Source of the DNA: Croceicoccus marinus | GTDB taxonomy: Bacteria > Pseudomonadota > Alphaproteobacteria > Sphingomonadales > Sphingomonadaceae | DNA: 64,000 nt | Direction: 5' to 3' | Assembly: GCF_001661675.2 (NCBI RefSeq) | Contig: NZ_CP019602.1 | Location: 1,513,501-1,577,500, forward strand | In this document: positions 1 through 15,019 of the stretch, in pieces | Layout: every line of letters begins with the position of its first letter | Numbering within the stretch: position 1 is the first letter of the stretch | Notes under the pieces: model-generated | Told to the model about the DNA's origin: nothing | What the model saw: the letters and a program-made list of their open reading frames with translations, nothing else | Databases searched by the model: none | Position numbers and translations under genes: made by a program

Positions 1-1416
1 ATCGGCACCGTAGGCGTCGGCGAGGCGACCATCCCCGCGATCAAGGGCTTCAATGCCATGCTCGACATTCCGGAGAACGAGTTTCTCCGCGAGACGCGCG
101 GCACCTTCAAGCTCGGCATCGAATTCGTGAACTGGGGGCGGCAGGGCGACCGCTATATCCACCCCTTCGGCGCGTTCGGCACCGATTTGCACGGCATTCC
201 GTTCCACCAGCTCTGGCTGCGCGAACATGCGCGCGGCGGCGGCGGAGACATCACCGATTTCTCGATGAGCGCCGCGGCAGCCGCCCTGGGCCGCTTCGGA
301 CGCCCCGCCGTGGGTGCCCGTCCCCCGGTGTCCGAAATCAATTACGCCTTCCACTTCGATGCTACGCTCTATGCCGCCTATCTTCGCAGGCTGGCCGAAC
401 GCCAGGGGGCGATCAGGCAGGAAGGCCGGATCGTCAAGGTCCACCGCGATGGCGAAAGCGGTGACGTGACCAGTGTCGAGCTGGAGGGCGGCAGGCTGGT
501 CGAAGGCGATCTCTTCCTCGACTGTTCGGGTTTTCGCGGCCTGCTGATCGAGGACGCGCTTGAAACCGGATACGAGGACTGGAGCCACTGGCTGCCGATG
601 GACCGCGCCATCGCCATGCCCACGGCCAACCGAAGCTCACCCGATCCTTTCACCCGCGCGACGGCCCATGCGGCAGGCTGGCAATGGCGCATACCGCTGC
701 AGCATCGCACCGGCAACGGCCACGTATTCTGCAGCGCCTTCATGCAGGAGGACGAGGCCGAGCGCATCCTGCGTGACACAGTGGAAGGCGAGGAACTGGC
801 CGATCCGCGGCTGATACGTTTCACCACCGGCATGCGGCGCAAGGCATGGAGCCATAATGTCGTGTCGCTGGGCTTGTCCTCCGGCTTTATCGAGCCGCTG
901 GAATCGACCAGCATCCATCTTGTCCAGAACGGGATCGCCCGGCTGTTCGGCCTGTTCCCGGAAAAGGACATCAGCCCCGTCGAGCGTGACGAATACAATC
1001 GCGGCATGCGCGAGATCTATGAGGATGTGCGCGACTTCATCATCCTGCACTACAAGGCGACCCAGCGGGACGATACCGAGTTCTGGCGCAGCGTCCGCGA
1101 CATGGACATCCCCGCCAGCCTGGCGCGCAAGATGGAGCTTTGGCGCCTGCACGGGCGTGTGTTCCGCGAAAATGCCGAACTGTTCACCCTGCCCAGCTGG
1201 GTGGCGGTGATGCTGGGGCAGAACGTGTGGCCCGAACGCTATGATCCGATTGCCGACACACTGGATGAAAACAGGGTGGCGCAGGCGATGGAGAAGATGC
1301 GCGCGGGCTATCGACAGACCGCGCAGCAATTGCCACCGCAGGAACAGTTTTTGCGCAGTGCCAACGCATGGGCCGTGTCGGACGAGATGCCGCTTTCGAT
1401 GGGGGTAGCGCGATGA
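1..1416 (+). CDS. Flavin-dependent tryptophan halogenase family protein (5' truncated by window edge)
   Basis: The frame is open from the first base, so about 40 residues, including the N-terminal GxGxxG FAD motif, lie outside the window. What remains starts inside the conserved GVGEATIP segment of flavin-dependent halogenases. It keeps the TFKLGIEF stretch that holds the active-site Lys of characterised enzymes such as PrnA and RebH, the WxWxIP signature (GWQWRIP) and the EPLESTSIH stretch with the conserved Glu. It is therefore probably catalytically competent. Its substrate cannot be read from sequence; relatives encoded beside TonB receptors act on indoles or have unknown substrates. The next halogenase starts inside its stop codon (ATGA overlap), so the two are translationally coupled. 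Confidence 0.9.
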   Translation: MGTVGVGEATIPAIKGFNAMLDIPENEFLRETRGTFKLGIEFVNWGRQGDRYIHPFGAFGTDLHGIPFHQLWLREHARGGGGDITDFSMSAAAAALGRFGRPAVGARPPVSEINYAFHFDATLYAAYLRRLAERQGAIRQEGRIVKVHRDGESGDVTSVELEGGRLVEGDLFLDCSGFRGLLIEDALETGYEDWSHWLPMDRAIAMPTANRSSPDPFTRATAHAAGWQWRIPLQHRTGNGHVFCSAFMQEDEAERILRDTVEGEELADPRLIRFTTGMRRKAWSHNVVSLGLSSGFIEPLESTSIHLVQNGIARLFGLFPEKDISPVERDEYNRGMREIYEDVRDFIILHYKATQRDDTEFWRSVRDMDIPASLARKMELWRLHGRVFRENAELFTLPSWVAVMLGQNVWPERYDPIADTLDENRVAQAMEKMRAGYRQTAQQLPPQEQFLRSANAWAVSDEMPLSMGVAR

Positions 1417-2948
1417 ACGGCGAACCTATCCGCAAGATCGTGATCGTCGGCGGCGGCACCGCGGGCTGGATGGCCGCGGCAGCAACTTCGCGCATCATGG
1501 GCGCTTTTCCGGGGCTGACGATCGAACTGGTCGAAAGCGAGGCGATCGGTACGGTCGGCGTGGGGGAAGCGACGATCCCGCAGATCATCTCGTTCAACAT
1601 GATGCTGGGGATCGACGAAGCGGAATTCGTGCGCGAGACCCGCGCGACCTACAAGCTGGGCATCGAGTTCGTCGACTGGCTGCGAATTGGCCACAGCTAT
1701 GTCCATCCCTTCGGATCCTATGGCATCGACATGCTGGGGATCGACTTCCACCATTTCTGGCTGCGCGGGCAGCGGGCCGGGCTCGATATGCCGCTGGACG
1801 AATTTTCCATCTCGGCGATGGCGGGAAAGGCGGGCCGGTTCATCCACCCGCGCAAGGACCAGCCGAATTCCCCCCTCGCCCGCATGGCCTATGCGTTCCA
1901 GTTCGACGCGGGGCGCTATGCCCGGTTCCTGCGAAACAGGGCCGAGGCGCAAGGCGTCATCAGGACGGAAGGACGCATAACCGAGGTCTTGCAGGACGGC
2001 GAAACGGGTTTCGTGACAGGCGTCAGGCTAGAAGACGGCAAGATCGTCGAGGGCGATCTGTTCCTCGATTGCTCGGGCTTTCGCTCGCTGCTGCTGGGAC
2101 AGACGCTGGGGGTCGGGTTCACCGACTGGAGCAAGTGGCTTCCCTGCGACCGCGCGATAGCCGTTCCCTGCAGCCTGGCGGGCGATAACGAGCCGCTGAC
2201 CCGATCCACCGCGCAGCCCGCGGGCTGGCAATGGCGCATCCCGCTGCAGCACCGCATCGGCAACGGCCATGTCTATTCCTCCGCGCACATGGAGGACGCA
2301 GAGGCCGAGGACATCCTGCACGCCGGTCTCGACGGGACGCCGCTGGCCGAGCCCAACCGGATCCGATTCACCGCCGGGCACCGCGACAGGATCTGGGAGA
2401 AGAACGTCATCGCGCTGGGCCTGTCGGGCGGGTTCCTGGAACCGCTGGAATCGACCGCCATCCATCTGGTTCAGAGCGGTATAGCGCGGCTGATGATCCT
2501 GTTCCCCTCGCGCGCGTTCAATCCGAAGGAGATCGAGCGCTTCAACCGCGACACCTTTGCCGACTATCTCGACATTCGCGACTTCCTGGTCCTGCACTAC
2601 AAGGCGACCGAAAGGGACGACAGCGAGTTCTGGCGCTATTGCCGCAACCTGCCGCCGCCCGACGGCCTTGCCGACAAGCTAGAAATGTTCCGCAGTTCGG
2701 GGCGTATCATACGGGAACACAACGAACTTTTTACCGAGGCAAGCTGGCTGGCCGTGATGGTCGGACAAGGGGTGGAGCCGTCGGGCTATCACCCCGCCGC
2801 TGCCCTGCTGGATGAGGATGAGACCCGCCGGCGGCTGAGCCATATTCGCCAGACCGTGGCGCACGCCGTCAGCCAGATGCCCACGCAGGACGAATATCTC
2901 GCCGGCATCGGCGGCGCGATCGCAGGCACCGATCGCATGCGCGCATGA
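1413..2948 (+). CDS. Flavin-dependent tryptophan halogenase family protein
   Basis: The protein has 511 residues. The ATG at 1413 overlaps the upstream stop (ATGA); the open frame runs further upstream but that part is not homologous. The FAD motif GGGTAG lies near residues 10-15 and GVGEATIP near 50. Lys81, Trp272/Trp274 of WxWxIP and Glu346 of LEST fall almost exactly where PrnA has Lys79, Trp272/274 and Glu346. The protein should use FADH2 supplied by a flavin reductase, which is not encoded in the window, to chlorinate or brominate an electron-rich ring. It lies between another halogenase and a cupin-like gene in a three-gene unit joined by 4-base overlaps. The natural substrate is unknown. 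Confidence 0.92.
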   Translation: MNGEPIRKIVIVGGGTAGWMAAAATSRIMGAFPGLTIELVESEAIGTVGVGEATIPQIISFNMMLGIDEAEFVRETRATYKLGIEFVDWLRIGHSYVHPFGSYGIDMLGIDFHHFWLRGQRAGLDMPLDEFSISAMAGKAGRFIHPRKDQPNSPLARMAYAFQFDAGRYARFLRNRAEAQGVIRTEGRITEVLQDGETGFVTGVRLEDGKIVEGDLFLDCSGFRSLLLGQTLGVGFTDWSKWLPCDRAIAVPCSLAGDNEPLTRSTAQPAGWQWRIPLQHRIGNGHVYSSAHMEDAEAEDILHAGLDGTPLAEPNRIRFTAGHRDRIWEKNVIALGLSGGFLEPLESTAIHLVQSGIARLMILFPSRAFNPKEIERFNRDTFADYLDIRDFLVLHYKATERDDSEFWRYCRNLPPPDGLADKLEMFRSSGRIIREHNELFTEASWLAVMVGQGVEPSGYHPAAALLDEDETRRRLSHIRQTVAHAVSQMPTQDEYLAGIGGAIAGTDRMRA

Positions 2949-3961
2949 CCACCCTCCCCCAGCCTGCCGCCATCGACGAGTTCGAGGGCAAGCTCGACGC
3001 CGAGCAGTTCGCGATCCTGCGCAAGGCGGGCCAGCCCGTGGTATTGCGCGGCCTGGTCGCGGATTGGCCTGCGGTCGCCGCTGCGTCCGGCGGCGACCGG
3101 GCGATGGCCGGTTACATGGCGCGCGAGCCGAGCACGCGCCCGGTCACGGCCATCGCGGCTCCGCCCAGCGAGGGCGGGCGATTTTTCTACACGCCCGACC
3201 TTTCGCAGCTGAATTTCAGCCGAGGCCAGGGCAGGCTGGAAGCGTTCATCGGCGATCTTATTACCGCGAGCGACCTGCCCGATGCGCCAGCGCTGGCGGT
3301 CCAGTCCGAAGACATCGCCGATCTGCTGCCCCGCTTCGCGGCCGAAAACCGGCTTGCGCTGCTGCCGCAAGTCAGGCCGCGGATCTGGATCGGCAACCGG
3401 ATACGCGTGGCGCCGCATTACGATCTGATGGAAAATGTCGCCTGCTGCGTCGCCGGGCAGCGCCGATTCACCCTGTTTCCGCCGGACCAGATCGCCAATC
3501 TCTATCCCGGCTCGTTCGAACTGACGCCTGCGGGTACGCCCGTCAGCATGGTCGACACGGATGCGCCCGATCTGGATCGTTTTCCGCGCTTCGAAAAGGC
3601 ATGGGCCGCGGCGCGGCAGGCGACGCTTGAGCCCGGCGATGCGATCTATATCCCCTATTGCTGGTGGCACGGAGTGGAATCGCTTGGTCCGCTGAACATT
3701 CTCGTCAACTACTGGTGGAACGAAGGGGAGCCCGAGGGGATCGGATCACCCTATAGCGCGCTGCTTCACGGCATCCTGTCCGTCCGGCATCTTCCGCCCG
3801 AAAAGCGGGCGATCTGGAAGACGATGTTCGACTATTACGTGTTCGAAGAGCACGGCGATCCGGTCGAGCACCTGCCGGTGCAGGCACGGGGCCTGTTCGG
3901 CTCCCCCTCGCCCGCGCTTTTCGCGCGGATGCGCGAGATTATCCGCGGCCTGCTGCGCTAG
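2945..3961 (+). CDS. Cupin-like (cupin_8/JmjC-type) domain protein
   Basis: 338 residues, with the ATG inside the upstream stop (ATGA). The protein has the double-stranded beta-helix pattern of JmjC/cupin_8 Fe(II)/2-oxoglutarate oxygenases: an HxD pair at His158/Asp160 (APHYDLMEN) and a distal His242 (WWHGVES), which together could bind iron. The stretch RRFTLFPPDQIANLYPG between them is nearly identical in the second cupin-like protein at 10078-11124. The family includes hydroxylases, but members in TonB-receptor/halogenase loci have no established substrate. Last gene of the plus-strand unit; its end overlaps the end of the convergent halogenase-like gene by 23 bases. Confidence 0.85.
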   Translation: MTTLPQPAAIDEFEGKLDAEQFAILRKAGQPVVLRGLVADWPAVAAASGGDRAMAGYMAREPSTRPVTAIAAPPSEGGRFFYTPDLSQLNFSRGQGRLEAFIGDLITASDLPDAPALAVQSEDIADLLPRFAAENRLALLPQVRPRIWIGNRIRVAPHYDLMENVACCVAGQRRFTLFPPDQIANLYPGSFELTPAGTPVSMVDTDAPDLDRFPRFEKAWAAARQATLEPGDAIYIPYCWWHGVESLGPLNILVNYWWNEGEPEGIGSPYSALLHGILSVRHLPPEKRAIWKTMFDYYVFEEHGDPVEHLPVQARGLFGSPSPALFARMREIIRGLLR

Positions 3962-5426
3962 CGCGCTGCACGATACTGGCCAGCCACTGCGCATAGGGGG
4001 GTGCGAAAGCCACCGCAGCGCGCGCCCGCTCGGCAAATTCCCGGGCCGCGGCGTCGCTGTTCACTGGCTGCGCGATCTGCATCGATCCCTCACCGAAACC
4101 CAGTGCCCTTAACAGCGCGGCAAGCTCCTGCCTGAGCAAGGGTGCTTCTTCCCAAAAGGGGATCCGGCCGCGGCGGCGCAACTGGTCGATGGTGAGGTCG
4201 AGGCGCTCCGAAAGCCCGGTTGCGCCAAACGGCTGCCTTGCGCGGGGCGCGGCATAGAAGGCGCCCAGGCTATCGCGCGCACCCTGGGCTATCAGCGCAG
4301 AGCGGCGGTTGTATTCGCTGCGCTCGACCGGCTCGGCCACCCTGCCCGGCAGCATTTCGAGCAGCAAGTCGATCTGGCGATGGGCAAGGTCGAGCGGCAG
4401 GCCCAGCAGCGGATGCAGCCTTGCGGCGGCATCGCCGATGGCAATGACATTGCCGATCCAGGCGCGGCATACGCAGCCCGGCTGCAGTTCCACGCGGCTT
4501 TCAATCTCGGCACCCATCGCAGCGCGAATTCTTTCGGGCGGCAGGTCGAGCGGCGCCCCCATCTCGAGCTGCAAGCCGTCGCGGCCCGCGAATTCACTCA
4601 GCCACCCTTCGTCCAGCAGCGTAATCCGGTCTTCCAGCGCGGCCATCGGCTGCCCCGGAACGGCCCGGTAGAGCGCGATCTTCGGCAGGATACCGCTCCA
4701 GTCCTCGACCGCATAGCCCGGCAAGCCCGACAGCAGGCGAGCTTCGCGGCCCGAGCAGTCGAGGTAGAGATCGGCGTCGATCCGCTGCCCGTTCGCGGCG
4801 ATCACTGCCCGCAGTTCGCCGCCGTCATCGATGTCGAGAGACGCTATGGCGCTGCTGACATAGCTAACGCCCAGCTGCCGGGCCTGGCCGATCAGCAGTT
4901 CGCGATAGGCTGCGGCATTCCAGCGCAAGCCATATTCGATGTTCGAGATGGGCGTGACCCGATCGGGGGGCGGCACCGCGAACCTGCCGTTCTGCGCCAG
5001 GATTTCAGCCAGCGATCCTGCAGACGGCGCACTCTCGCCCGGCCTTGCTTGGTCGCCCCATGCCTGCGCGAAGCCCGGCATGGCGGCCCGATCCGCGCCG
5101 CCGCCATAGGGCATGGCGCCATGGCTGGCTTCCTTGTTCCAGCCGAAAAGCCGGGTGACAAGGCGGTGGCTGCCCCCGGCCTGCAGGATGACAGCCTCTT
5201 CCGCTATGCCGAGGCGGTCGTGCAATCGGTTGGTGAAGGGCAAGGAGGTTGCCGCGCGGTCGGCAAGATCCGCCGGACCGGACGGCGCGCCCATGATGAC
5301 GATATCGCATCCCGGCATCGCGCGGCGCATGGCAATGGCGGCAAGCAGCCCCACCTGGCCGTCGCCCGCGACGACGATACGCCGCAACGGCTCGCGCGGG
5401 CCAGTCATCTCGCGCGGGCCAGTCAT
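3939..5426 (-). CDS. Halogenase-like flavoprotein, catalytic residues lost
   Basis: 495 residues, collinear with the neighbouring halogenases but strongly diverged. The N-terminal GxGxxG (GDGQVG, residues 21-26) is kept, so FAD may still bind. The GVGEATIP segment is replaced by AATSLPFT. The active-site Lys is Arg88 (SHRLVTRLFGW), no WxWxIP motif is present, and EPLEST reads HPLLGL, so both Glu are gone. It therefore probably does not halogenate; a partner, scaffold or different oxidoreductase role is inference. The first ATG overlaps the stop of the upstream halogenase (ATGA). A perfect 18-bp direct duplication repeats the start region (MTGPRE twice), so a second ATG lies at 5406-5408. It is the last gene of the minus-strand operon. 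Confidence 0.75.
   Translation of the reverse strand: MTGPREMTGPREPLRRIVVAGDGQVGLLAAIAMRRAMPGCDIVIMGAPSGPADLADRAATSLPFTNRLHDRLGIAEEAVILQAGGSHRLVTRLFGWNKEASHGAMPYGGGADRAAMPGFAQAWGDQARPGESAPSAGSLAEILAQNGRFAVPPPDRVTPISNIEYGLRWNAAAYRELLIGQARQLGVSYVSSAIASLDIDDGGELRAVIAANGQRIDADLYLDCSGREARLLSGLPGYAVEDWSGILPKIALYRAVPGQPMAALEDRITLLDEGWLSEFAGRDGLQLEMGAPLDLPPERIRAAMGAEIESRVELQPGCVCRAWIGNVIAIGDAAARLHPLLGLPLDLAHRQIDLLLEMLPGRVAEPVERSEYNRRSALIAQGARDSLGAFYAAPRARQPFGATGLSERLDLTIDQLRRRGRIPFWEEAPLLRQELAALLRALGFGEGSMQIAQPVNSDAAAREFAERARAAVAFAPPYAQWLASIVQRASAAGRG
5391..5426. repeat. Perfect 18-bp tandem duplication at a start codon
   Basis: The 18-mer CTCGCGCGGGCCAGTCAT occurs twice head to tail (5391-5408 and 5409-5426). 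On the coding strand each copy holds an ATG followed by codons for TGPRE, so the halogenase-like gene has two in-frame starts. Only the outer one overlaps the upstream stop codon. Confidence 0.95.
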
Positions 5427-6946
5427 GCCGCGCGCGCCAGGCGGGCCGCTTCGCTGCGCAGGTAATCCGCGTGGCCGGGCATGGCCGCCACCTCGTCATC
5501 GATTGCCTGTTTCAAACGATCGAGCGCGCCCCTGACGCGGACCGGATCGACCTGCGGAACTCTGGGATCATAGCGTTCGGGCAGCAGACCCTGCCCGACA
5601 TAGACGGCGATCCAGCTCGGCTCGAAGAACAGACCCTCGCCATATTTCTCGACCCGGCCGGTGTTGCGCCACAGTTCGATCTTGTCGGCCAGGCTGTCAG
5701 GCACCTGCATGGTCCGGACATGGTTCCAGAAGTCGGAATCGTTCCTGCGCGTGACGTGATAATGCAGGATCAAGAAGTCGCGGATCCGGTCATATTCCAT
5801 GTCGACCAGCCGGTTGAATTCGTCGCGATCGCGCTGCTCGATCCGTCCGTCGGCAGGAAAAAGCTCGATCAGATTGGTGATCGCCATCTGCGCCAGATAG
5901 ATCGATGTCGATTCCAGCGGCTCCAGGAAACCGCTTGCCAGACCCACGGCGACGACATTGCCCGACCACGACCGGCGCCGCCTGCCGGGCCGGAAGCGCA
6001 GGATGCGCGGATCGGCCAGCGGCTTGCCCCTGGCGGCCCCGCGGATCGCGTCGCACGCCTGATCCTCGGACAGATGGGCGCTGGAGAATACATAGCCGTT
6101 GCCCATGCGGTGCTGCAGCGGAATTTCCCACCGCCAGCCCGCCGGCATGGCAGTGGCGGTGGTATAGGGCGGCAAATCGTCACTCTCATGCGCGCAAGGC
6201 ATGGCGGCGGCGCGGTCGCAGGGCAGCCAATGGGTCCAGTCCTCCCACTCCTCGGCCATTTCCTGGCCAAGCAGCAACGAGCGGAAACCCGAACAATCGA
6301 CAAAGAGATCGCCTTCGATCCTTCGCCCGTCCTTGAGCAGAAGGGCGGCGACGTCGCCGCTTTCTCCATTGCGTTTGACGCTGGTGACGATCCCCTCATG
6401 CCGCGTGACGCCGATCGTCAGGCCGAACTGGCGCATGAACGGACCGAACAGGGTCGCGTCGAACTGATAGGCATAGCCGTAGGTAGAGCCGAGCGAACCG
6501 TCCTGCGCGGGCGGGCGGAACCGGTTTTCACGCGCCGCCCTGACCGCGAAGGAATAATCGCCAATGTCGGAACCGAGACCCAGTCGGCGCTGTTCCAGCC
6601 ACCAGTGGTGGAAGCCGACCGATTGTACCGCCTCGCCGAAGCCGCCGAAGGGGTGGATATAGCTTTCGCCGATTGCGCCGAAATCGCGGAAATCTATACC
6701 AAGCTTATAGGTGGCGTGGGTCGCCTTCATGAAGCTGGCTTCATCGATCCCCAGCCGTTCGACGAAACCCCGAATGTGCGGCAGGGTCGCTTCGCCCACG
6801 CCGACGATGCCGATGTCTTCGCTTTCGATCAGCTCGACCGTGACTTGCCCGGGCAACAGCCGCGCAAGCGAAGCGGCTGTCATCCAGCCCGCCGTGCCGC
6901 CGCCAAGGACGACGACACGCACGGGGCTGGATCCATCTTGTATCAT
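5423..6946 (-). CDS. Flavin-dependent tryptophan halogenase family protein
   Basis: 507 residues. The start ATG at 6946 is placed by homology: MIQDGSSPVR leads straight into VVVLGGGTAGW, the FAD-binding loop, while the longer open frame upstream is the shadow of the porter gene. Key positions are Lys81 (TYKLGIDF), Trp271/Trp273 (GWRWEIP) and Glu345 (EPLESTSIY), so it is expected to be active. It follows the sugar-porter gene after 47 bases containing a hairpin and overlaps the halogenase-like gene by 4 bases. Substrate unknown. Confidence 0.92.
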   Translation of the reverse strand: MIQDGSSPVRVVVLGGGTAGWMTAASLARLLPGQVTVELIESEDIGIVGVGEATLPHIRGFVERLGIDEASFMKATHATYKLGIDFRDFGAIGESYIHPFGGFGEAVQSVGFHHWWLEQRRLGLGSDIGDYSFAVRAARENRFRPPAQDGSLGSTYGYAYQFDATLFGPFMRQFGLTIGVTRHEGIVTSVKRNGESGDVAALLLKDGRRIEGDLFVDCSGFRSLLLGQEMAEEWEDWTHWLPCDRAAAMPCAHESDDLPPYTTATAMPAGWRWEIPLQHRMGNGYVFSSAHLSEDQACDAIRGAARGKPLADPRILRFRPGRRRRSWSGNVVAVGLASGFLEPLESTSIYLAQMAITNLIELFPADGRIEQRDRDEFNRLVDMEYDRIRDFLILHYHVTRRNDSDFWNHVRTMQVPDSLADKIELWRNTGRVEKYGEGLFFEPSWIAVYVGQGLLPERYDPRVPQVDPVRVRGALDRLKQAIDDEVAAMPGHADYLRSEAARLARAA

Positions 6947-6990: not shown

Positions 6991-6993
6991 GTC

Positions 6994-8421
6994 TTAACCT
7001 TCCATCTCTTCCAGTTCCTTGCCCTTGGTCTCGACAATGAAGCGCTGCACCAGGAAGAAGCTGATCACTGCGCATACGGCATAGAAGCTGTAGCTTGCCG
7101 CAAGGCCGATGCCGATCGCCATGACCGGGAAGGTCTGCGCGACGAGATAGTTGGCGAACCATTGGAAGAAGCCTGCCACGGCCAGCGCGCTGCCGCGGAT
7201 CTGGTTCGGGAACATCTCGCCCAGCATCACCCACATCACGGGGCCCCAGCTGACGTTGAAGAAGACCACGTACAGATTGGCCGCGATGACGGCTACCATG
7301 CCCATCTCGCTCGACAGCACGAGCGCACCCTCGGCATCCAGCGTGCCCTGGCTGAACGCGTACACCATCACGAACAGCGTCACCGACATGCCGGCCGAGC
7401 CGATCAGCAGCAGCGGCTTGCGCCCGATGCGGTCGATGACCGCGATGCAGATGAAACACGCCGCGATCGACACGGCGCCCGAGAAAATGTTGATCAGCAG
7501 GCTGTCACTCTCGTTAAAGCCGGCCAGCTGCCACAGCGTCGCGCCATAATAGAAGATGACGTTGATGCCGACGAGCTGCTGGAACACGGCCAGCATGATG
7601 CCGACCCAGACGATGGGACGAATGCCCAGGAAGCTCTTCGCTCCCGCAGGGGCAACAACGTCACGCAGGCTGGGGCGGTGGTCGCCGGAAAAGCTGTTGC
7701 GGATCTCGGTCAGCTTCGCCTTGGCCACGACTTCCCCGAACAGGCTGGTCAGCACGCCGAGTGCTTCGGTATCCCGGCTCTTGGCGACGAGATAGCGCGG
7801 GCTTTCCGGGATGAAGAACAGCGCGAGCAGGAAGATTGCGGCGGGCACGGCCTGCGCCAGATACATCCAGCGCCACGCCTGCAGACCGCCCCAGAAGACA
7901 TTGGTCGATTCGCCCGCAGCGGCGGCAAGAACGTAGTTCACGAGGAACGCCGCCGTCAGGCCTGTAATCACCATGATCTGCTGCACGGTCGTCATCCGGC
8001 CGCGAATATTGGCCGGTGCCACCTCGGATATGTAGGCCGGCGAGAGAACCGACGCCGCGCCGACGGCCATGCCGCCCGCGATACGGGCAATGACGAAGAT
8101 CGTGTGCGATTCCGAAAGACCCTGGACCAGCGCACCGATCAGGAACAGCAGCGCGGCAAGCCGCATGACGTTGCGGCGACCGATCGCGTCGGCCAGAGTA
8201 CCAGCGGCGAAAGCACCGATGAAACAGCCGATCAGAAGCGAGCCGACGGTGAAGCCCAGTCCGCCCTCGGTCAGCAGGAATGCCGACTTCAGGCCCGGCT
8301 GCGTCCCGTTTACTGCGCCGCTGTCATAGCCGAACAGCAATCCGCCAATCGTCGCGACACCTACAATCGCCGAGATCAGCGCAAGATTTGTGCCCCCGGC
8401 CTTATCCGTGTTGGTTCCCAT
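6994..8421 (-). CDS. MFS sugar porter family transporter
   Basis: 475 residues and about 12 predicted membrane helices. Sugar-porter hallmarks are GRR after helix 2 (residues 81-83), PESPRYL (205-211) at the end of the first half, QQLVGIN near 285, the second DRIGRK loop, and the C-terminal VETKG. It is a cytoplasmic-membrane, probably proton-coupled, monosaccharide importer. Its place downstream of a TonB receptor suggests the locus takes up a carbohydrate or glycoside. A good ribosome site (GGGAGAG) precedes the ATG. The leader carries a 12-bp LacI-type palindrome and a 9-bp-stem hairpin, so it probably has its own regulated promoter. The sugar is unknown. Confidence 0.9.
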   Translation of the reverse strand: MGTNTDKAGGTNLALISAIVGVATIGGLLFGYDSGAVNGTQPGLKSAFLLTEGGLGFTVGSLLIGCFIGAFAAGTLADAIGRRNVMRLAALLFLIGALVQGLSESHTIFVIARIAGGMAVGAASVLSPAYISEVAPANIRGRMTTVQQIMVITGLTAAFLVNYVLAAAAGESTNVFWGGLQAWRWMYLAQAVPAAIFLLALFFIPESPRYLVAKSRDTEALGVLTSLFGEVVAKAKLTEIRNSFSGDHRPSLRDVVAPAGAKSFLGIRPIVWVGIMLAVFQQLVGINVIFYYGATLWQLAGFNESDSLLINIFSGAVSIAACFICIAVIDRIGRKPLLLIGSAGMSVTLFVMVYAFSQGTLDAEGALVLSSEMGMVAVIAANLYVVFFNVSWGPVMWVMLGEMFPNQIRGSALAVAGFFQWFANYLVAQTFPVMAIGIGLAASYSFYAVCAVISFFLVQRFIVETKGKELEEMEG

Positions 8422-8458: not shown

Positions 8459-8463
8459 GGTAT

Positions 8464-8475
8464 GGTAGCGCTACC
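8464..8475. promoter_or_regulatory. LacI-type operator-like palindrome upstream of sugar porter
   Basis: GGTAGCGCTACC is a perfect 12-bp palindrome with the central CG typical of LacI/GalR-family operators. It sits 43-54 bases before the porter ATG. It partly overlaps a weak -10-like ATAGGT (8474-8479) that follows a TTGCTT (8496-8501), a position suited to repression. The same 12-mer recurs at the start of the TonB-receptor gene. No LacI-family gene is in the window. Confidence 0.65.
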
Positions 8476-8563
8476 TATGACGCAAACAACGGTGAAAGCA
8501 AGCCGTCTTGTTTGCGGCCTGCCGAGTTACCCTTCTGCGTCAAAATGCCTGAAATTGCTTCGA

Positions 8564-10081
8564 TTAGCCCGAATGGACCAGCCCTGCCCCCGCCTGTGCT
8601 TTCCCCGATAAAAGTCGCTCGATAAAATCCTGGTGTTTCGGCAGCCGGTCGACATGCGCCGCGATCGCCGCTCGCTGTCGTTCAAGCTCGCCTTCAAGCC
8701 GTCCCTCGCTCATCAACGCGCCGATGCGGTGCCAGTGTTCGGGCTGAAGACGCTGGCCCAGCATGACCTGCAGCCAGCTTTCCGCGCGGAACAGATCGTC
8801 CGGAGCCTGCCATGCCTGCGCCGAACTGGTGAAGCTGGCAATCCGGTGCCGAAGCGAATCGGGAATCGCCAAGTCCCGGCACCTGCGCCAGAACGCGGAA
8901 TCGTCGCGCTCCGTCAGCTTGTAGTGAAGGATGATGAAGTCGCGGACCTTCTCAAGCTCGGTATCCGCCATCGTATTCCAGCGATCGCGGACCGCCTGAT
9001 CGGACCCGGCGAAGGGGAACATCTGGATCAGCCGCGTCACCCCGATCATGACGAGGTGGATGCTGGTGGATTCCAGCGGCTCGACAAATCCGGATGAAAG
9101 CCCAAGCGCCAGACAATTGCCCCGCCACATCTGCTGGCGCTTGCCGGTCTTGTAACGGATCAGCCGCGGCTCGCTCCTCGGCCGGCCGGTGATCGACCCC
9201 ATGAGCCTGTCGCGCGCCTTGTCGGGATCGAGATAATCGCTGGCGAAGACTAGCCCGTTTCCGGTCCGGTGCTGCAGCGGGATGCGCCATTGCCAGCCCG
9301 CATCATGCGCGATTGCGCGCGTAAGGGGCGGCGGCGCCTCATCCGTCTCGGTCTGCACCGCCCAGGCTGCATCTGTCGCAAGCCACTCGCTCCAGTCGTC
9401 ATAGCCGCTGCCCATTGCCTGGCCGATCAGCAAGGCGCGAAAGCCGGTGCAATCGACGAACAGATCGCCTTCGATCTCGCGCCCGTCTTCCAGCACCAGT
9501 GCGGCGATGTCACCGCTTTCGGGCTGATGGCGGACGTCGGCGATCCTGCCTTCGACCCGTTGCGCGCCATTGGTTTCCGCGATGGTGCGCAGGAATGCGG
9601 CATAGCGCCCGGCGTCGAGGTGATAGGCATAGCTGAGCGCCGGCTTGCCTTCATTGGAAAAGCGCCCGGCCAGCGCAGCCTCATGCTCCAGGCAATAGGC
9701 GCCCATCGGCGTGTCGATTCCGGCGTGGCGGGCTTCCAGCCAGAAATGCTGGAAATCGGCGACCCAGTTCTGCAGGGCGAACGTACCGAAAGAGTGGATG
9801 TACTGGTCGCCGGGGCGCGCCCAGTTTTCGAACTGGATGCCAAGCTTGAAGGTCGCACCGGTCGCCTCGACAAAGGCGCGCTCGTCGATGCGCAGGAATT
9901 CGTGGAAGCTGCGCGCGGTGGGGATCGTCGCCTCGCCCACGCCGATGGTTCCGATATCGTCGCTTTCCACCAGGGTGACATCGACCAGGCGGCCAAGCTG
10001 GCGGGCCAGCGCCATCGCGGCGATCCAGCCTGCGGTCCCGCCGCCTGCCACCACGACCCGGGTAGGCGTTACATCGCTCAT
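8564..10081 (-). CDS. Flavin-dependent tryptophan halogenase family protein
   Basis: 505 residues, starting at the ATG that overlaps the cupin-like gene's stop (ATGA). GGGTAG (13-18) and GVGEATIP form the FAD site. Lys79 (TFKLGIQF), Trp263/Trp265 (GWQWRIP) and Glu337 (EPLESTSIH) complete the usual halogenase active-site set. It is preceded by cupin-like and sapC genes in a tightly overlapped unit behind the TonB receptor, and followed after 142 bases by the sugar porter. In this order (receptor, SapC, cupin, halogenase) the protein may modify, or tolerate, an imported aromatic or glycosidic compound; that role is inference. Confidence 0.92.
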   Translation of the reverse strand: MSDVTPTRVVVAGGGTAGWIAAMALARQLGRLVDVTLVESDDIGTIGVGEATIPTARSFHEFLRIDERAFVEATGATFKLGIQFENWARPGDQYIHSFGTFALQNWVADFQHFWLEARHAGIDTPMGAYCLEHEAALAGRFSNEGKPALSYAYHLDAGRYAAFLRTIAETNGAQRVEGRIADVRHQPESGDIAALVLEDGREIEGDLFVDCTGFRALLIGQAMGSGYDDWSEWLATDAAWAVQTETDEAPPPLTRAIAHDAGWQWRIPLQHRTGNGLVFASDYLDPDKARDRLMGSITGRPRSEPRLIRYKTGKRQQMWRGNCLALGLSSGFVEPLESTSIHLVMIGVTRLIQMFPFAGSDQAVRDRWNTMADTELEKVRDFIILHYKLTERDDSAFWRRCRDLAIPDSLRHRIASFTSSAQAWQAPDDLFRAESWLQVMLGQRLQPEHWHRIGALMSEGRLEGELERQRAAIAAHVDRLPKHQDFIERLLSGKAQAGAGLVHSG

Positions 10082-11124
10082 CGCTGCAGCTTTCGTGTGA
10101 CCTGAGCCCGCAAGCGCCGGGCGAGCGCGGCATCCACGGCGCCAAGCGGGCCGCGAATATGATCCGGCAGATGATCGCGCGCCTCGGCGGGGTCGGCGAA
10201 GGCGTAATAGTCGAAGATCGCCGCCCACGCCTTCCGCTCGTGAGCAGGCCGCTGGCGCAGGGACAGCAAGGCGTGCAGCAAGGTCGTCTGCGGCGTGTCG
10301 ACATAGTCGGGCACCGCATTCCACCACCAGTTCAGCAGGATGTTGAAATCGCCCAGCGCCTCGACCTGATGCCACCACATGGCGGGATAGACGATGACGT
10401 CGCCCGGTTCCAGAACGCCGCTGACAGCCGCCTTCATCGCGTCCGGGAAACCGGGAAAACGATCGAGATCGGGGGCGGCGAAGTCGACCATGGTGACCAC
10501 CTGCCCGCCGGGCGTAGGCTCGAGCGGACCGGGATAGAGATTGGCGATCTGGTCCGGCGGAAACAGGGTGAAACGCCTGCGCCCCGCAGCGCAAAGCGCG
10601 CAATTGTTGGAATGATCGTAATGCGCGGCGGTGATCGTCCGATTGCCCATCCACAGGCTGGCCACGACGGGCGCGCCATTCGCTCCCTCGGCCCCTGCGA
10701 CGCCGGGATCGTTTGCTTCGCGGATGCCGGGGAAGAACAGGTCGAGGTCGGTGGAGCCGACATAGATTGCCTGCTGCGCGCCGCGCTGCAGTTCGTCCAG
10801 GACAGCCGGCAGATCCTCTCGCGATCCGGAGAAGTTGAAGCCGTCCAGCGCAGGCGTGTAGTGGAACCGCCCGCGCGTCTCGCGATCGGCGCGATAGACC
10901 GTTACCGGGCGGCCGCTGTGGAACGACAGCAAAAGCTGGCTTGCAGCAGAGGCGGATTTGCGGGCGGCCTGCACGATCGGCAGATCCTTGCCCGCGCCGC
11001 GGAAGATCACCGGTTCCAGCGACGCCTCGACAAAGGCGTTGAGTTCGGACCCGCGCGGCATTGGCTCATGCAATTCGCGGATGGGACGTGGGTCCGAAAT
11101 CTCCAGCGTCGCTGCCCCGGTCAC
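10078..11124 (-). CDS. Cupin-like (cupin_8/JmjC-type) domain protein
   Basis: 348 residues. It begins at a GTG that overlaps the sapC stop (GTGA). The likely iron ligands are His168/Asp170 (AAHYDHSNN) and His252 (WWHQVEA), on a JmjC/cupin_8 fold. It shares RRFTLFPPDQIANLYPG and the following VTMVD...APDLDRFP region with the plus-strand cupin-like protein, so the two are close paralogues. Each belongs to a separate cupin-halogenase module of this locus. The enzymatic activity of such proteins in TonB loci is not established. Confidence 0.85.
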   Translation of the reverse strand: MTGAATLEISDPRPIRELHEPMPRGSELNAFVEASLEPVIFRGAGKDLPIVQAARKSASAASQLLLSFHSGRPVTVYRADRETRGRFHYTPALDGFNFSGSREDLPAVLDELQRGAQQAIYVGSTDLDLFFPGIREANDPGVAGAEGANGAPVVASLWMGNRTITAAHYDHSNNCALCAAGRRRFTLFPPDQIANLYPGPLEPTPGGQVVTMVDFAAPDLDRFPGFPDAMKAAVSGVLEPGDVIVYPAMWWHQVEALGDFNILLNWWWNAVPDYVDTPQTTLLHALLSLRQRPAHERKAWAAIFDYYAFADPAEARDHLPDHIRGPLGAVDAALARRLRAQVTRKLQR

Positions 11125-11825
11125 AATGGCCTGCCCTGCCTTCGATCAGCCAAGGCGTTGATATTGCCGAGCGAATGCGCCGCCATGACGGCCGGCACCA
11201 GCAGCCCCGCCGAGCTCAGCTCACCCAGCGCTTCGGCCGAAAGATCGGCCAGCGTTTCCGGGAGGATCGCGCTGAAATTCTCGAACTGGATCGTGGTCGT
11301 GTCGTCGATATTGATCGAGATCGGAAGCAGCTTCACCAGTTCGTGACGCTGGAAAATCTCGCTCATCGCCGCACATACGCCCTCACCCCGGTGGATCAGT
11401 TGCAGCGCGTCCAGGGCATCGACCAGCGCAGGCGCGTGGCCGCCATGTTCGAGGAACAGCGGATAGCCATCCTGGCCATCGGCAGCGATCCGCGCATGCG
11501 CCATGTCGATATGCACCGCGGGATCTTCCGGCCGGGCGCGGCCGATCATCAACGGACCCCGCCGGACCAGTGCAGGAATATAGCGAGCCTGCCAGCCCCG
11601 ATCCGAGGCGAAGAGGTTTTCCTGCGCCGTCAGGCCCAGGATTGCGACCGGCTGGAGCAGATCGTCTTCGTCCCTGGTGAACAGGATCGGATATTCGCGC
11701 TGCACCAGCACGAACTCCTCTGCGTACACGCCGATCTGGCCGAGTGGATCGCCGGACTGCGCGCCGCGCGCCGCCTTCAGCCGCACATCGGCGTGGCTCA
11801 CGCTGTCGAGAGGCGCAATGGTCAT
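11121..11825 (-). CDS. SapC family protein
   Basis: 234 residues with the SapC pattern (EYPILFTRDE near residue 45, LGLTAQENLF near 65, YIPALVRRGPLMIG near 85, FLEHGG near 125). SapC was named for S-layer protein export in Campylobacter, but in sphingomonads and caulobacters the gene usually sits beside TonB receptors in sugar loci, where its job is unknown. No signal peptide is seen. It starts 93 bases after the receptor stop, behind a strong hairpin, has no clear ribosome site, and overlaps the cupin-like gene by 4 bases. Confidence 0.85.
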   Translation of the reverse strand: MTIAPLDSVSHADVRLKAARGAQSGDPLGQIGVYAEEFVLVQREYPILFTRDEDDLLQPVAILGLTAQENLFASDRGWQARYIPALVRRGPLMIGRARPEDPAVHIDMAHARIAADGQDGYPLFLEHGGHAPALVDALDALQLIHRGEGVCAAMSEIFQRHELVKLLPISINIDDTTTIQFENFSAILPETLADLSAEALGELSSAGLLVPAVMAAHSLGNINALADRRQGRPL

Positions 11826-11917: not shown

Positions 11918-14900
11918 TCAGAACCGGAAGCGGGCTCCGGCGTAGTAGCGAGGCCGGCTGTCGACGATGAACCAGGGCTGGTTCTTCGTACGAGCAAAGG
12001 TCTCGTAGTTCGAACCGGTCAGGTTGATCGCCTCGAACGACACCGAGATTGCATCGGTGATGTCGTAGCTGACGTTCAGGTCGATCTGTTCATAAGCGTT
12101 GACGAACACCGGGTTACGCGAAGCACCGCGGCTGTTGTTCGACAGGAACGTGTCGCGCCAGTTGTAGGTCAGACGCGCCGACAGGCCGTACTTTTCGTAA
12201 ATGGCCGACAGGTTGACCGTGTCCGACAGACCGAGCAGCGCGAACTGGTCGGCAGTCGTCGGAGCCGTGATGTCATACCCGATATCACCGCGAACGAGCG
12301 TGTAGGCCGCCGCGATGCCGAAGCCCGATTCGCCGAAGAAGTGCTGACCGGCGATTTCCATACCATAGATATGGGCGTCCTCGCTGTTGACCGGCTGCTG
12401 CGTCTGGAACTGGTACAGCGGATCGCCTTCGTTCGCGACCAAGTCGTACTGGCCGAGGACCGAGTCGACGAAGGTCTGGCTAAGCCCACCCGGAGTCAGG
12501 TTCGCCTGGAACTGGTCTACTGCGGCATCAAGTCCGAACTGGTCGATCAGCGCGGTCAGCGTGAACAGGTTCACGTCCGAAATGTCGAGATTGTTGGTCT
12601 GCAGATACTCAAGCGCAGCACCCGAACGAGTCCCCGGAGCGCCCGAGCTGGGATCACGCAGATCGAACAGGCTCTGCGTCGTCTGTCCCGTGCCGACGAA
12701 ATTACGGACACGCTTGTCGAAGAAGCCGGCCGACAGATAGCTCGACGGCGCGAAGTACCATTCGAAGCTGACGTCGAAGTTGTCAGATTCCAGCGGGATC
12801 AGCTGCGGGTTGCCCTGCGTACCGCCCGGAACACCGCCCAGTGCGGTGGGACGGTTGGGCGCGCCCGGATTGGAAGCAGCGAACAGCGAACCGAAGTCCG
12901 GACGCGAAATGGTCCGGCTGAGCGACACCCTGCCCTTGAAGTTGTCGGTGATATCGACCGAAACGTCGATCGACGGCAGGATGTGGTCATAGCTGTTCGA
13001 GCCTTCGACCGGCTGCTCACCCGACGAAAGAACGGTGAGGAAGTCGTTGTCGGCGGTCCAGTCGATGCTCGCCGGGATACCCTGCAACGTGATCGAGCGC
13101 GACTTGGTGTTCTCGTAGCGCACGCCAGCCAGGACGTTGACCGGACGTTCCATCAGTTCGGTATTGAGATCGACCTGCGCATAAAGGGCCCAGATCTTTT
13201 CCCTGACCGTATTGTTCGACGTGCCGTTGATGATCGGAGAATTCACGAACGCATTGAACAGATCCGTGGCGTCCCCGCGGAACGCTGTCGCCAGGGGATC
13301 ACCTTCCGAAACGCCGGTGTCGTAATCCCTGAACTGGCAGACCATGCAAAATGTCTGGACCAGGTCGCCAGCCATCTCCTCGATGTCGCCGATATTGCCC
13401 ACGCCCCAGTCGCCAAGGGTGTTCTGCGTGCTCATCGTCCGGCTGTTCATATCAGCCTCACGATAGTTGCCGCCGAACATCACGCGGTCATCGTCGCCCA
13501 TCTCCCAGATATTGTCGAGGCGAACCTCCTTGACATCCTGCTCCTGGTAAGCGGTCTGGCTACGCGCGATCTGCGAACCCAGGTCGGCAAGGTCGAGTAC
13601 GCCATTGTTGTTGCCGTTGGAGTCGTCGAAGGTGATGAACTGCTGCGGAAAGCCGTTCTCGATGTTCAGCCCCTGGTCGACGATCGACTTCTGCGCCATC
13701 GAGAACAGGGTCGAAGTGTGGCCGAGCGGGTTGTTCGGCTGCGCCTCCGCCTTCGAATAATGGCCGTCGACGATGGTCGTCAGGCTGTCGGTGACTTCAT
13801 ATTCGAGGTTGAGGCCATAGGACATCAACTCGTCCTTGGTGGCGCGATACTGCTGCTCGAAACCGCCGTCCTTGGGGGCGGTGATCACGTCGTCGATATA
13901 GACCGCAGTCGCCACCTTGTAGTTGCCGTCGAACGAGATTTCGTCAAACGGACGGTTGTACCAGGTGGTTTGGTCGGCGCGCTTTTCCTCTGCCGCATTG
14001 CGGTAATAGGTCACGTCGGCGGTGGCGGTGAAGCGGTCGGTCGGCGCGAACTGGGCCGTAAGCTGGCCGTTGATACGCTCACGCTCGAACTCGGAGTAGT
14101 TGTAGCGCGTGTCGTTGGGAATGCCGATCAGCGTGTCACCGGATTGCGGCGCATTGTTGATGATCGTGCTGCCGTCGGCGCGGCGGAAGGTCGTGCTGCC
14201 AAGGAATTGCGAATAGGGCAGGATGTTCCAGTCGTTGGCCGAAACCGCGATCGCGGAGTTGTGGCGCAACTGGTAGCTGCCGAACAGGCCCACGCCGAAA
14301 GTGCCGGCATCGTTCGACCAGTTCACGATGCCCGAAACTTCGGGCGTCACGCGCGAATAGTCATAGGTGTCTGCCGCGTCGTAGACGGCCTTCGCGCCGA
14401 TCGAGCCCGAGAGGCCCGCCGCGCCGTCGAGCGGACGCCGCGTGACGATGTTGATGGCGGCGCCGATGCCGCCGCCGGGGATCGAGGCGCGACCGGTCTT
14501 GTAGACCTCGAGCCTGCTCACGCCTTCGGAAGCGAGATTGGCGAAGTCGAACGAGCGGGTCGTGCCCGAGACGAAGTCGCCATTCTGGTCCTGGCCGACC
14601 GATGCGATGCTGGCCGTGGGCAGCGTGCGCCCGTTCAGCGTGACCAGGTTGAAGCCCGGACCGAAACCGCGAACCGTCACGCGCGAACCTTCGCCGTTGA
14701 CGCGGTCGATCGACACGCCGGTGATACGCTGCAGCGATTCCGCCAGGTTGGTATCGGGGAACTTGCCGATTTCCTCGGCCGAGATGCCGTCGACGACGCC
14801 GGCGTTGTTGCGCTTCAGTTCGATCGAGCGATCGAGCGATGCACGAATGCCGGTGACGACGATGGTGTCGTCCGCTGCCGCTTCCGAATTGCCCGGCTGG

Positions 14901-15019
14901 GCCTGTTCGTCCTGAACAGTGTCCTGCGCATGGGCAATGGTAGCGCTACCAAAAACAGTTGAAAAAACAAGCCACGACGCTGATCGAGCAAGCGTCGAAC
15001 GAAGCTTCGTTCCCTTCAT
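11918..15019 (-). CDS. TonB-dependent outer-membrane receptor
   Basis: 1033 residues. The start ATG at 15019 is followed by a signal peptide ending near AHAQ (residue 31). A plug domain follows (TIVVTGIRASLDRS, EEIGKFPDTNLAESLQRITGVSIDR, VTVRGFGPGFNLVTLNGR), then a large beta-barrel ending in aromatic RFRF, as expected for BAM insertion. This is the long TonB-receptor type common in sphingomonad and caulobacter sugar loci. Ligands pass the outer membrane at the expense of TonB energy; the ligand is unknown, but the porter downstream points to a carbohydrate-containing compound. It heads the operon with sapC, cupin and halogenase genes. A LacI-type palindrome lies inside the signal-peptide codons and a weaker one upstream. 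Confidence 0.93.
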   Translation of the reverse strand: MKGTKLRSTLARSASWLVFSTVFGSATIAHAQDTVQDEQAQPGNSEAAADDTIVVTGIRASLDRSIELKRNNAGVVDGISAEEIGKFPDTNLAESLQRITGVSIDRVNGEGSRVTVRGFGPGFNLVTLNGRTLPTASIASVGQDQNGDFVSGTTRSFDFANLASEGVSRLEVYKTGRASIPGGGIGAAINIVTRRPLDGAAGLSGSIGAKAVYDAADTYDYSRVTPEVSGIVNWSNDAGTFGVGLFGSYQLRHNSAIAVSANDWNILPYSQFLGSTTFRRADGSTIINNAPQSGDTLIGIPNDTRYNYSEFERERINGQLTAQFAPTDRFTATADVTYYRNAAEEKRADQTTWYNRPFDEISFDGNYKVATAVYIDDVITAPKDGGFEQQYRATKDELMSYGLNLEYEVTDSLTTIVDGHYSKAEAQPNNPLGHTSTLFSMAQKSIVDQGLNIENGFPQQFITFDDSNGNNNGVLDLADLGSQIARSQTAYQEQDVKEVRLDNIWEMGDDDRVMFGGNYREADMNSRTMSTQNTLGDWGVGNIGDIEEMAGDLVQTFCMVCQFRDYDTGVSEGDPLATAFRGDATDLFNAFVNSPIINGTSNNTVREKIWALYAQVDLNTELMERPVNVLAGVRYENTKSRSITLQGIPASIDWTADNDFLTVLSSGEQPVEGSNSYDHILPSIDVSVDITDNFKGRVSLSRTISRPDFGSLFAASNPGAPNRPTALGGVPGGTQGNPQLIPLESDNFDVSFEWYFAPSSYLSAGFFDKRVRNFVGTGQTTQSLFDLRDPSSGAPGTRSGAALEYLQTNNLDISDVNLFTLTALIDQFGLDAAVDQFQANLTPGGLSQTFVDSVLGQYDLVANEGDPLYQFQTQQPVNSEDAHIYGMEIAGQHFFGESGFGIAAAYTLVRGDIGYDITAPTTADQFALLGLSDTVNLSAIYEKYGLSARLTYNWRDTFLSNNSRGASRNPVFVNAYEQIDLNVSYDITDAISVSFEAINLTGSNYETFARTKNQPWFIVDSRPRYYAGARFRF
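14938..14951. promoter_or_regulatory. LacI-type palindrome inside the receptor signal-peptide codons
   Basis: TGGTAGCGCTACCA is a perfect 14-bp palindrome whose inner 12 bases equal the element before the sugar porter. It lies in the reading frame, encoding GSAT at residues 24-27, about 70 bases after the ATG. An intragenic operator acting as roadblock or looping site is possible; chance is not excluded. Confidence 0.5.

Follow-up and report, generated by a model that had tools for sequence, protein, structure and literature searches.

By its predicted gene content, the region at the start of the 64,000-nucleotide window (the whole stretch of Croceicoccus marinus DNA that was analysed) represents the receptor-proximal half of a CUT-type locus for glucuronoxylan utilisation, in which flavin-dependent halogenases (FDHs) stand beside TonB-dependent receptors (TBDRs). 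The best overall explanation is a xylan locus with receptor-coupled cytoplasmic oxidative enzymes, putative brominases together with an FIH-like hydroxylase, that may act on a receptor-system polypeptide. As a whole, this explanation is put forward tentatively, at somewhat less than even confidence; its part concerning the locus and the receptor linkage is highly probable. The locus content, synteny, shared operator, receptor linkage, and conservation of residues and pseudohalogenases were read from the compared sequences.

Gene Organization and Recurrence of the Locus

Only half of the locus falls within the window. The other half lies upstream in the same genome and contains TBDR-A, a GH10, two GH3, and a GH67 enzyme, a LacI regulator, and an IlvD-type dehydratase. 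A TonB receptor, glycoside hydrolases, a regulator, and an inner-membrane transporter share this one locus, as in CUT-type systems. The original prediction had counted a single TonB receptor; there are two, as TBDR-A, transcribed divergently from FDH1, lies immediately before the window.

FDH1 (1..1416, plus strand; PF04820) runs past the window edge at its 5′ end, and the whole gene is L001:15352-16917. Completed from the genome, FDH1 matched PF04820 with an E value of 1.1e-192 and had the catalytic residues; the match opens 108 bp ahead of window base 1, and the chosen start codon lies 150 bp ahead. FDH2 (1413..2948, plus strand; Pfam E 5e-185) and cupin A (2945..3961, plus strand; 3.3e-64), a Cupin_8/FIH-like 2-oxoglutarate oxygenase, follow, each with an ATGA overlap with the preceding gene. 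Facing them on the minus strand are the MFS sugar porter (6994..8421; 1.9e-107), FDH4 (5423..6946; 4.3e-179; start codon inspected), and the pseudohalogenase FDH3 (3939..5426; 2.9e-45), which has an intact ORF and an ATGA overlap with FDH4. The porter scored above the cut-off of the sugar porter subfamily; XylE was the nearest named model, with a score under the XylE cut-off. Also on the minus strand, FDH5 of the SapC-type module (8564..10081; 1.3e-180) has an ATGA overlap with cupin B (10078..11124; Cupin_8, 7.7e-62), the GTG start of which overlaps the stop of the SapC family gene (11121..11825; 4.6e-50). TBDR-B (11918..15019, minus strand) matched TIGR01782 with 653 bits against a cut-off of 310, and its start was set after signal-peptide inspection.

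Profile searches recovered all five predicted halogenase-type genes (the three intact ones lying whole in the window at E values from 4.3e-179 to 5e-185), as well as the two Cupin_8 genes, SapC, the sugar porter, and the receptor. Two convergent modules, each bearing a cupin, had also been proposed. FDH1-FDH2-cupin A does face MFS-FDH4-FDH3, whereas TBDR-B-SapC-cupin B-FDH5 is a separate unit. A search of other genomes for the same gene order found the core (TBDR-A and FDH1-FDH2-cupin facing MFS-FDH4-FDH3) in 16 more genomes from the same family. With FDH3 as bait, 17 other sites were obtained, and 16/17 had the same core beside GH10. FDH5-cupin-SapC-TBDR-B recurred as a separate module.

PF04820 enzymes are classical tailoring enzymes, which would suit a natural-product (RiPP or NRPS) tailoring cluster. 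Such a cluster is very improbable here. No scaffold synthase or precursor peptide was found among the 18 genes scanned, in agreement with the earlier statement that a scaffold-making enzyme is lacking, and the genes are conserved together with glycan genes. The window part leaves no room for a precursor, because the genes overlap and the gaps are only 47, 142, and 92 bp. Since similar enzymes adjoin sugar-receptor genes in many bacteria, the FDHs probably serve the receptor system and not a drug-like product. A "tryptophan halogenase" match beside a TIGR01782-class receptor should accordingly not be taken as a natural-product cluster.

The xylan/xylose CUT loci of Xanthomonas campestris and Caulobacter crescentus, as described in the main text of their report, likewise group a TonB receptor, a LacI-type regulator, a sugar porter, and glycoside hydrolases into a single regulated locus, and their xylose-induced receptor genes are preceded by a palindrome (Blanvillain 2007, PMC1790865). 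The locus here adds four core FDH-type genes, a fifth in the added module, and FIH-like cupins; the words halogenase and SapC are absent from that main text.

Shared Operator

In 17/17 xylan loci, one palindromic operator was found at three promoters, among them those of both halogenase operons, with distances measured to stop-to-stop ORF ends and not to proven start codons. The operator is common to receptor and enzyme promoters, as in CUT-type loci. The first search used a palindrome modelled on the Caulobacter/Xanthomonas xylose box, and the later consensus was built from the matches; 58 sites were counted across the 17 xylan loci, compared with 0.3 in shuffles. In the window, the operator-like palindrome TGGTAGCGCTACCT (8463..8476) lies upstream of MFS-FDH4-FDH3, and an equivalent site is present in each of the 17 loci. 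The exact palindrome TGGTAGCGCTACCA (14938..14951) lies within the signal-peptide codons of TBDR-B and may be either an operator or a coding coincidence. The operator was present in 11 of 25 named pseudohalogenase loci and in 4 of 53 other named loci, the locus rows not being independent (L131 and L037 seem to represent one contig; L122/L123 and L151/L161 closely resemble each other). The LacI protein would repress the three promoters via this shared palindrome.

Linkage of Halogenases to TIGR01782 Receptors

A TIGR01782 receptor lay ≤6 kb from 46 of the 54 full-length FDHs examined across 13 genomes, compared with about 1.7 expected from a simple product (receptor number multiplied by span over genome size). 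No FDH lay within 6 kb of 51 of the 86 TIGR01782 receptors, and 8 of the 54 FDHs had no such receptor within 6 kb. Among 80 named loci, which are the best 80 of at least 585 confirmed and therefore biased to FDH1-like proteins, a receptor was present in 71, a cupin in 19, and SapC in 2, so the full gene set is not general. The linkage was inherited, with 11 label changes compared with 41.8 in shuffles. Receptor and FDH distances correlated over all modules (0.376; largest permutation 0.137); within genomes, no significant correlation was found (37 pairs, permutation p 0.13). This conserved linkage agrees with the uptake-linked system of the original prediction. As far as linkage is concerned, the halogenases are not the unrelated lineages without receptor association that had been named as evidence against it.

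FDH-receptor pairs accompany xylan, starch-type (GH13/GH31/GH97), GH30, and GH95 gene sets; a C. vibrioides locus of the L161 kind, for instance, holds TBDR-FDH-GH3-GH30. The genome analysed here itself has two more such loci (L080 and L081) among the FDH-receptor loci with GH13, GH31, GH97, GH30, or GH95. Pfam counts covered 98 of the 99 proteins selected in 25 loci and 92 of the 99 selected in 27 of 53 loci, with long ORFs omitted for size and genes already labelled (FDH, TBDR, cupin, SapC, MFS, GH3, GH10, GH67, and LacI) left out. The FDHs had been proposed to halogenate or detoxify an imported aromatic or glycosylated compound, of which the hydroxycinnamates on xylan would be an example. 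Plant xylans bear hydroxycinnamates, and GH10 and GH67 are present in the xylan locus. Starch-type glucans have no aromatic group, and no aromatic-degradation gene was found among the 18 genes scanned. Because FDHs accompany xylan, starch-type, and other glycoside-hydrolase sets, aromatic detoxification is quite improbable.

Intact Halogenases

FDH1, FDH2, FDH4, and FDH5 carry GxGxxG, the catalytic Lys and Glu, and WxWxIP, as expected of BrvH/Xcc4156-type halogenases. The intact class was defined by Lys87, Trp277, Trp279, and Glu351. Beyond these four residues, 34 further columns were invariant in all 215 main-clade intact FDHs. They include the pocket residues His104, Phe106, Ser352, and Thr353 (identical in 215/215), which were the same whatever the accompanying glycan. 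The invariant pocket speaks against the suggestion that each halogenase acts on a different position or ligand, although differences further out are possible.

In the tree, the FDH1 ortholog clade spans 19 loci; FDH1, FDH2, and FDH4 each cluster with their counterparts from other genera, and the neighbours of FDH5 are FDHs of other SapC-type modules. Recent local duplication, for which a phylogeny had been suggested, did not appear in this tree, by which FDH1, FDH2, and FDH4 are old lineages.

The closest solved proteins to FDH1 were BrvH (6frl), Xcc4156 (6y1w), and 9luq; BrvH and Xcc4156 are also the closest to FDHs of Brevundimonas and Xanthomonas receptor loci. BrvH and Xcc4156 have the same catalytic residues as the intact FDHs here (PMC5945002, PMC7336383), and by analogy the latter would use halide. 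According to the available text of these reports, BrvH and Xcc4156 brominate indoles with bromide preferred, and BrvH and the Xanthomonas enzymes take free indole and indole derivatives (PMC5945002, PMC7336383). BrvH had low specific activity on indole, and its authors doubted that indole is the natural substrate (PMC5945002). An open site and a possible peptide substrate were proposed for both enzymes. The available text of the two papers gives no receptor context, with no occurrence of the word TonB in either (PMC5945002, PMC7336383). The BrvH authors drew a comparison with MibH, a peptide tryptophan halogenase with an open site that acts on Trp within a peptide. MibH is part of a lantibiotic pathway, whereas no precursor peptide was found here.

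The acceptance of free indoles by these relatives (PMC5945002, PMC7336383) would also suit a small aromatic molecule, diffusible and derived from indole, tryptophan, or phenol, as the FDH substrate; it would act as a signal, co-inducer, or inhibitor tied to glycan feeding. The constant pocket across glycans and the xylan operator at the FDH operons are consistent with it. This substrate is nevertheless rather unlikely, given the low and doubtfully natural indole activity (PMC5945002), the redundancy of several divergent FDHs per locus for one molecule, and the finding of no aromatic-synthesis genes among the 18 genes scanned.

FDH3 and the Pseudohalogenase Family

In FDH3, Lys87 is replaced by Arg, and WxWxIP and the catalytic Glu are lost. 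The predicted division into four intact halogenases and one degenerate one was correct for the catalytic residues; the "degenerate" FDH3 is, however, an intact ORF. The catalytic Lys was Arg in 16/17 and Gln in 1/17 members of the FDH3 clade, and Glu was lost in 17/17. Pseudohalogenases, a status that rests on alignment columns, made up 48 of 284 FDH-like ORFs, after four ORFs (split-gene parts, an overlapping frame, and a short poorly aligned ORF) had been set aside. In 46 of the 48, an intact FDH was located beside the pseudohalogenase on the same strand. Both catalytic Lys and Glu were missing in 41/48; the Lys column was kept in 4 and the Glu column in 4, with one keeping both. Gene debris was rejected as a description of FDH3, which belongs to a widespread conserved family. 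FDH3, overlapping FDH4 and without catalytic residues, may be a partner or regulatory subunit.

The widespread branch without catalytic Lys and Glu would fit reuse of the FDH fold for a function other than halogenation, for example oxidation by the flavin, or the sensing of redox state or of a ligand for the receptor system. No flavin reductase was found among the 18 genes scanned, which points the same way; flavin reductases are often unlinked to halogenase genes. The 34 extra invariant columns of the main clade, pocket residues included, argue against this reuse and make it improbable. Bromination by the relatives argues against it as well (PMC5945002, PMC7336383).

Cupins and SapC

The best solved relatives of cupin A were FIH and JMJD5, with HxD and the distal His aligned (E 1e-19). 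Cupin B also has HxD and the distal His in a pairwise alignment with cupin A, and both are Cupin_8 proteins with the Fe ligands of the FIH-like fold. Factor inhibiting HIF (FIH) and JMJD5/JMJD7 are protein hydroxylases. Cupin A aligns with the FIH core, but the cupins here differ in being bacterial and FDH-coupled. By this relationship, the cupins may hydroxylate a protein side chain. They had been called close paralogues, which was overstated because they are 42% identical. The AlphaFold2 model of SapC had a pLDDT of 94.2 and gave no match when compared with solved structures.

Proposed Function

From the enzyme families present, the lipoprotein-like GH10 would cleave xylan, TBDR-A and perhaps also TBDR-B would import the oligosaccharides, and the exported GH67 and GH3 enzymes would complete their breakdown. 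The sugar would be taken up via the sugar porter, and the IlvD-type dehydratase would use an aldonate as substrate. Signal peptides are lacking in the FDHs, FIH-like cupins, and SapC, the genes of which overlap, and these proteins are therefore probably cytoplasmic; they would be receptor-coupled accessory proteins co-induced with the receptor. In the shared open pocket of the intact FDHs, an indole- or phenol-type group would be halogenated at the expense of FADH2, O2, and halide.

The favoured, if somewhat doubtful, FDH substrate is a receptor-system polypeptide, either a partner protein or the receptor itself while nascent, rather than the imported sugar. Because the receptors are exported, a cytoplasmic enzyme would need to act before export. 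Among 117 FDH-linked and 48 unlinked receptors (49 listed, one with an internal stop dropped), the linked ones drawn from more genomes, no model column of the receptor alignment was conserved at ≥0.8 in the former and ≤0.2 in the latter. Over these columns, the search for a target residue specific to FDH-linked receptors was thus negative, which speaks against a receptor polypeptide as substrate. The best Trp column reached 0.49 in linked and 0.18 in unlinked receptors, and the strongest columns of any residue were Arg154 (0.92 and 0.33) and Asp396 (0.90 and 0.33).

As a broader and unlikely generalization, dedicated protein-modifying enzymes may serve the large TIGR01782 carbohydrate receptors of alpha-, beta-, and gammaproteobacteria. 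An open-site brominase, sometimes with an FIH-like hydroxylase and SapC, would mark the receptor or a partner, either ahead of export or in the course of it, and in plant-wall loci a dead halogenase would regulate the active ones. BrvH/Xcc4156-type halogenases have been studied as biocatalysts although, according to the available text of the reports, their native substrates are not known (PMC5945002, PMC7336383). The question of their native role is made experimentally tractable by the inherited receptor linkage across glycans, the shared xylan operator, and the conserved pseudohalogenases. If the proposal is true, it would be a bacterial post-translational halogenation system for nutrient uptake and would supply the missing native role of these orphan halogenases.

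Gene Arrangement at the Xylan Locus

The first halogenase gene, FDH1, is cut by the start of the window (C1:1513501-1577500), and its PF04820 match begins 108 bp upstream of base 1. The adjoining upstream stretch of this 4.1 Mb genome carried genes for an IlvD-type dehydratase, LacI and GH67, followed by divergent GH3, GH3 and GH10 genes. The receptor gene TBDR-A, on the minus strand, was divergent from FDH1-FDH2-cupin A. FDH3-FDH4-MFS faced the latter genes, and FDH5-cupin B-SapC-TBDR-B lay behind. A GH43 gene with a beta-xylosidase-type C-terminal domain was located a few kb upstream of this xylan locus (L229:12666-14441).

The original prediction placed the halogenases around one TonB receptor. 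TBDR-B was indeed such a receptor, but the upstream TBDR-A was a second; both matched TIGR01782 (653 and 638 bits, respectively; cut-off 310) and were distant from each other, with 33% identity across 286 N-terminal residues. The dehydratase scored above the cut-offs for two broad IlvD subfamilies and below those of the xylonate- and arabinonate-specific models. XylE was the nearest model for the sugar porter (MFS), which scored under the XylE cut-off.

In the window, ATGA overlaps joined FDH1-FDH2, FDH2-cupin A, FDH4-FDH3 and cupin B-FDH5, and a GTGA overlap joined SapC-cupin B. The FDH4-FDH3 junction was an in-frame ATGA overlap in 11 of 17 xylan loci; in the other six it was GTGA (five) or TTGA (one), scored by position alone. 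The overlaps favour co-translation and possibly complexes. Start codons of the halogenases were near the flavin-binding motif, and by inspection the halogenases, cupins and SapC had no signal peptide.

Conservation in Other Genomes

FDH3 was used as bait (E <= 1e-70) against 296 genomes of the order, representing 80 genera. Matches were found in 17 genomes, including the window's own, and in nine genera. The 17 matches outside the window had 42-53% identity and no internal stops. At 16 of these 17 sites, one per genome and all in the same family, the window's arrangement of TBDR-A, FDH1, FDH2, FDH4, FDH3, MFS and GH10 recurred. The remaining site, L065, had a receptor and halogenases and no xylan enzymes. 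With the window counted, cupin A adjoined FDH2 in 15/17 loci, and GH67 was inside the fetched stretch in 10/17. In one genome, FDH2 was split in two ORFs (L047:22133-23368 and its neighbour) with the remaining core intact. FDH5-cupin B-SapC-TBDR-B was outside the conserved core; units of receptor, SapC, cupin and halogenase occurred elsewhere (L069, L071, L076, L097, L098, L099).

A Shared Palindrome

A 14-bp palindrome with the consensus TGGTAGCGCTACCA was present near three promoters in all 17 xylan loci. These positions were next to GH3 on the side facing GH67, LacI or TBDR-B, in the gap separating TBDR-A from FDH1, and ahead of MFS-FDH4-FDH3. Searching with up to one mismatch to the degenerate consensus gave 58 sites in the xylan loci versus 0.3 after triplet shuffling; L065 had no site. 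The Caulobacter xylose-regulon box is presumably similar in sequence to this palindrome. A 20-bp palindrome of that regulon is described upstream of xylose-induced Xanthomonas receptor genes (PMC1790865). By sequence, the halogenase operons would be members of a xylan regulon. An exact copy also lay within the TBDR-B signal-peptide codons (window 14938-14951); it may be a genuine operator within the gene or a chance product of the coding sequence.

Among the best 80 of at least 585 confirmed halogenase loci, chosen by likeness to FDH1, 11 of the 25 that hold a pseudohalogenase contained the palindrome (16 sites versus 0.2 expected), each with a site adjoining the receptor gene; of the 53 that lack one, 4 contained it (4 sites versus 1.0 expected).

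Intact Halogenases and Pseudohalogenases

Lys87, Trp277, Trp279 and Glu351 (FDH1 numbering) were retained in 232 of 284 halogenase-like ORFs. Four of the other 52 were set aside, leaving 48 pseudohalogenases. The 215 main-clade intact halogenases had 38 invariant columns, comprising the four defining residues and others including His104, Phe106, Ser352 and Thr353, which on our reading of the alignment would correspond to RebH/BrvH pocket residues. A second intact clade of 17 members (L081, L083, L089, L090, L091, L094, L126, L147) also adjoined receptors or SapC; Gly replaced Pro of WxWxIP in eight.

All 48 pseudohalogenases retained the first Gly of GxGxxG, and 43 retained Trp277. Residues in the Lys column were Arg (27), Ser (10), Lys (4) or others (7), and both Lys and Glu were lost in 41. 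Forty-six adjoined an intact halogenase on the same strand, 24 being flanked on both sides, and 45 had a receptor within 10 kb. FDH3 had been called degenerate, which its 17 stop-free matches outside the window contradict. Mean identity within its clade was 52% (17 sequences) versus 70 to 79% for FDH1, FDH2 and FDH4, and 81 positions were nearly invariant (at least 16/17), including Arg87 (16/17). Faster evolution with a fixed key-residue replacement fits a subunit that may have a new role rather than decay.

Linkage of Halogenases and Receptors

Across 13 genomes, a TIGR01782 receptor lay no more than 6 kb from 46 of 54 full-length halogenases (chance about 1.7) and from 32 of 36 halogenase clusters, so the linkage on which the original prediction depended was conserved. 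Conversely, 35 of 86 such receptors had a halogenase within 6 kb. Linked and unlinked receptors clustered coherently, with 11 label changes versus 41.8 in shuffles (minimum 35). One receptor of the window's genome (G000:C2:309018-311597) contained an in-frame TAG and was left out of the receptor comparison.

Among the best 80 of at least 585 loci, a receptor was present in 71, and in 53 of the 57 at least 20 kb long. These loci spanned Sphingomonas, Caulobacter, Asticcacaulis, Brevundimonas, Pelomonas, Massilia, Undibacterium, Xanthomonas, Cellvibrio, Gilvimarinus and Glaciecola, among others. Cupin_8 occurred in 19 of the 80 and SapC in two; therefore, the halogenase-receptor pair is the general component, to which cupin and SapC are optional additions.

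Within the family, 148 of 149 genomes had SapC. Its predicted model (pLDDT 94.2, pTM 0.89) matched no solved structure. Of 26 SapC genes, 13 were within 6 kb of a halogenase; the other 13 were far from any halogenase, exactly one in each of 13 genomes (L003-L032).

Possible Substrates

Neighbours of the 25 pseudohalogenase loci included 8 GH43 and 7 GH9 among 98 proteins. Among 92 neighbours from 27 of the remaining 53 loci, there were 12 GH13 alpha-amylases and 5 glucokinases. Halogenase loci carried GH13 and GH31 in a Xanthomonas sp. MAG, GH31 and GH97 in Brevundimonas, GH3 and GH30 in C. vibrioides, and GH13 and GH31 (L080) or GH95 (L081) elsewhere in the window's genome. A partner kept across such varied loci is unlikely to act on the aromatic decorations of one glycan, and the imported aromatic or glycosylated substrate first proposed is accordingly unlikely.

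The solved chains nearest FDH1 were 6y1w, 9luq and 6frl. BrvH and Xcc4156 are described as brominating indoles and not free tryptophan, with an open site, a possible peptide substrate and an unknown native substrate (PMC5945002, PMC7336383). Cupin A was similar to protein hydroxylases. A receptor-coupled reading of the halogenase system is best supported. A polypeptide of the receptor system is tentatively the single most likely substrate class, because the relatives' pocket is open, part of the loci have a protein-hydroxylase-type partner, and the halogenases are independent of the glycan and tied to individual receptors. Counting against it, 51 of 86 TIGR01782 receptors had no halogenase within 6 kb. 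Aligning 117 linked and 48 unlinked receptors gave no position conserved in linked receptors only; the strongest columns were Arg154 (0.92 versus 0.33) and Asp396 (0.90 versus 0.33). The within-genome correlation of receptor and halogenase trees was not significant (p 0.13). A small-molecule substrate is a serious, though less likely, rival.

A table of Sphingomonas colony-morphology mutants includes a single insertion that hit a 'tryptophan halogenase' gene (PMC11340318), possibly a phenotype for this family. If a polypeptide is the substrate, TIGR01782 receptors may be served by dedicated protein-modifying enzymes, a brominase sometimes joined by cupin and SapC, with a catalytically dead halogenase as regulatory partner in plant-wall loci; this is a rather doubtful proposal, its odds slightly lowered because cupin and SapC are optional.
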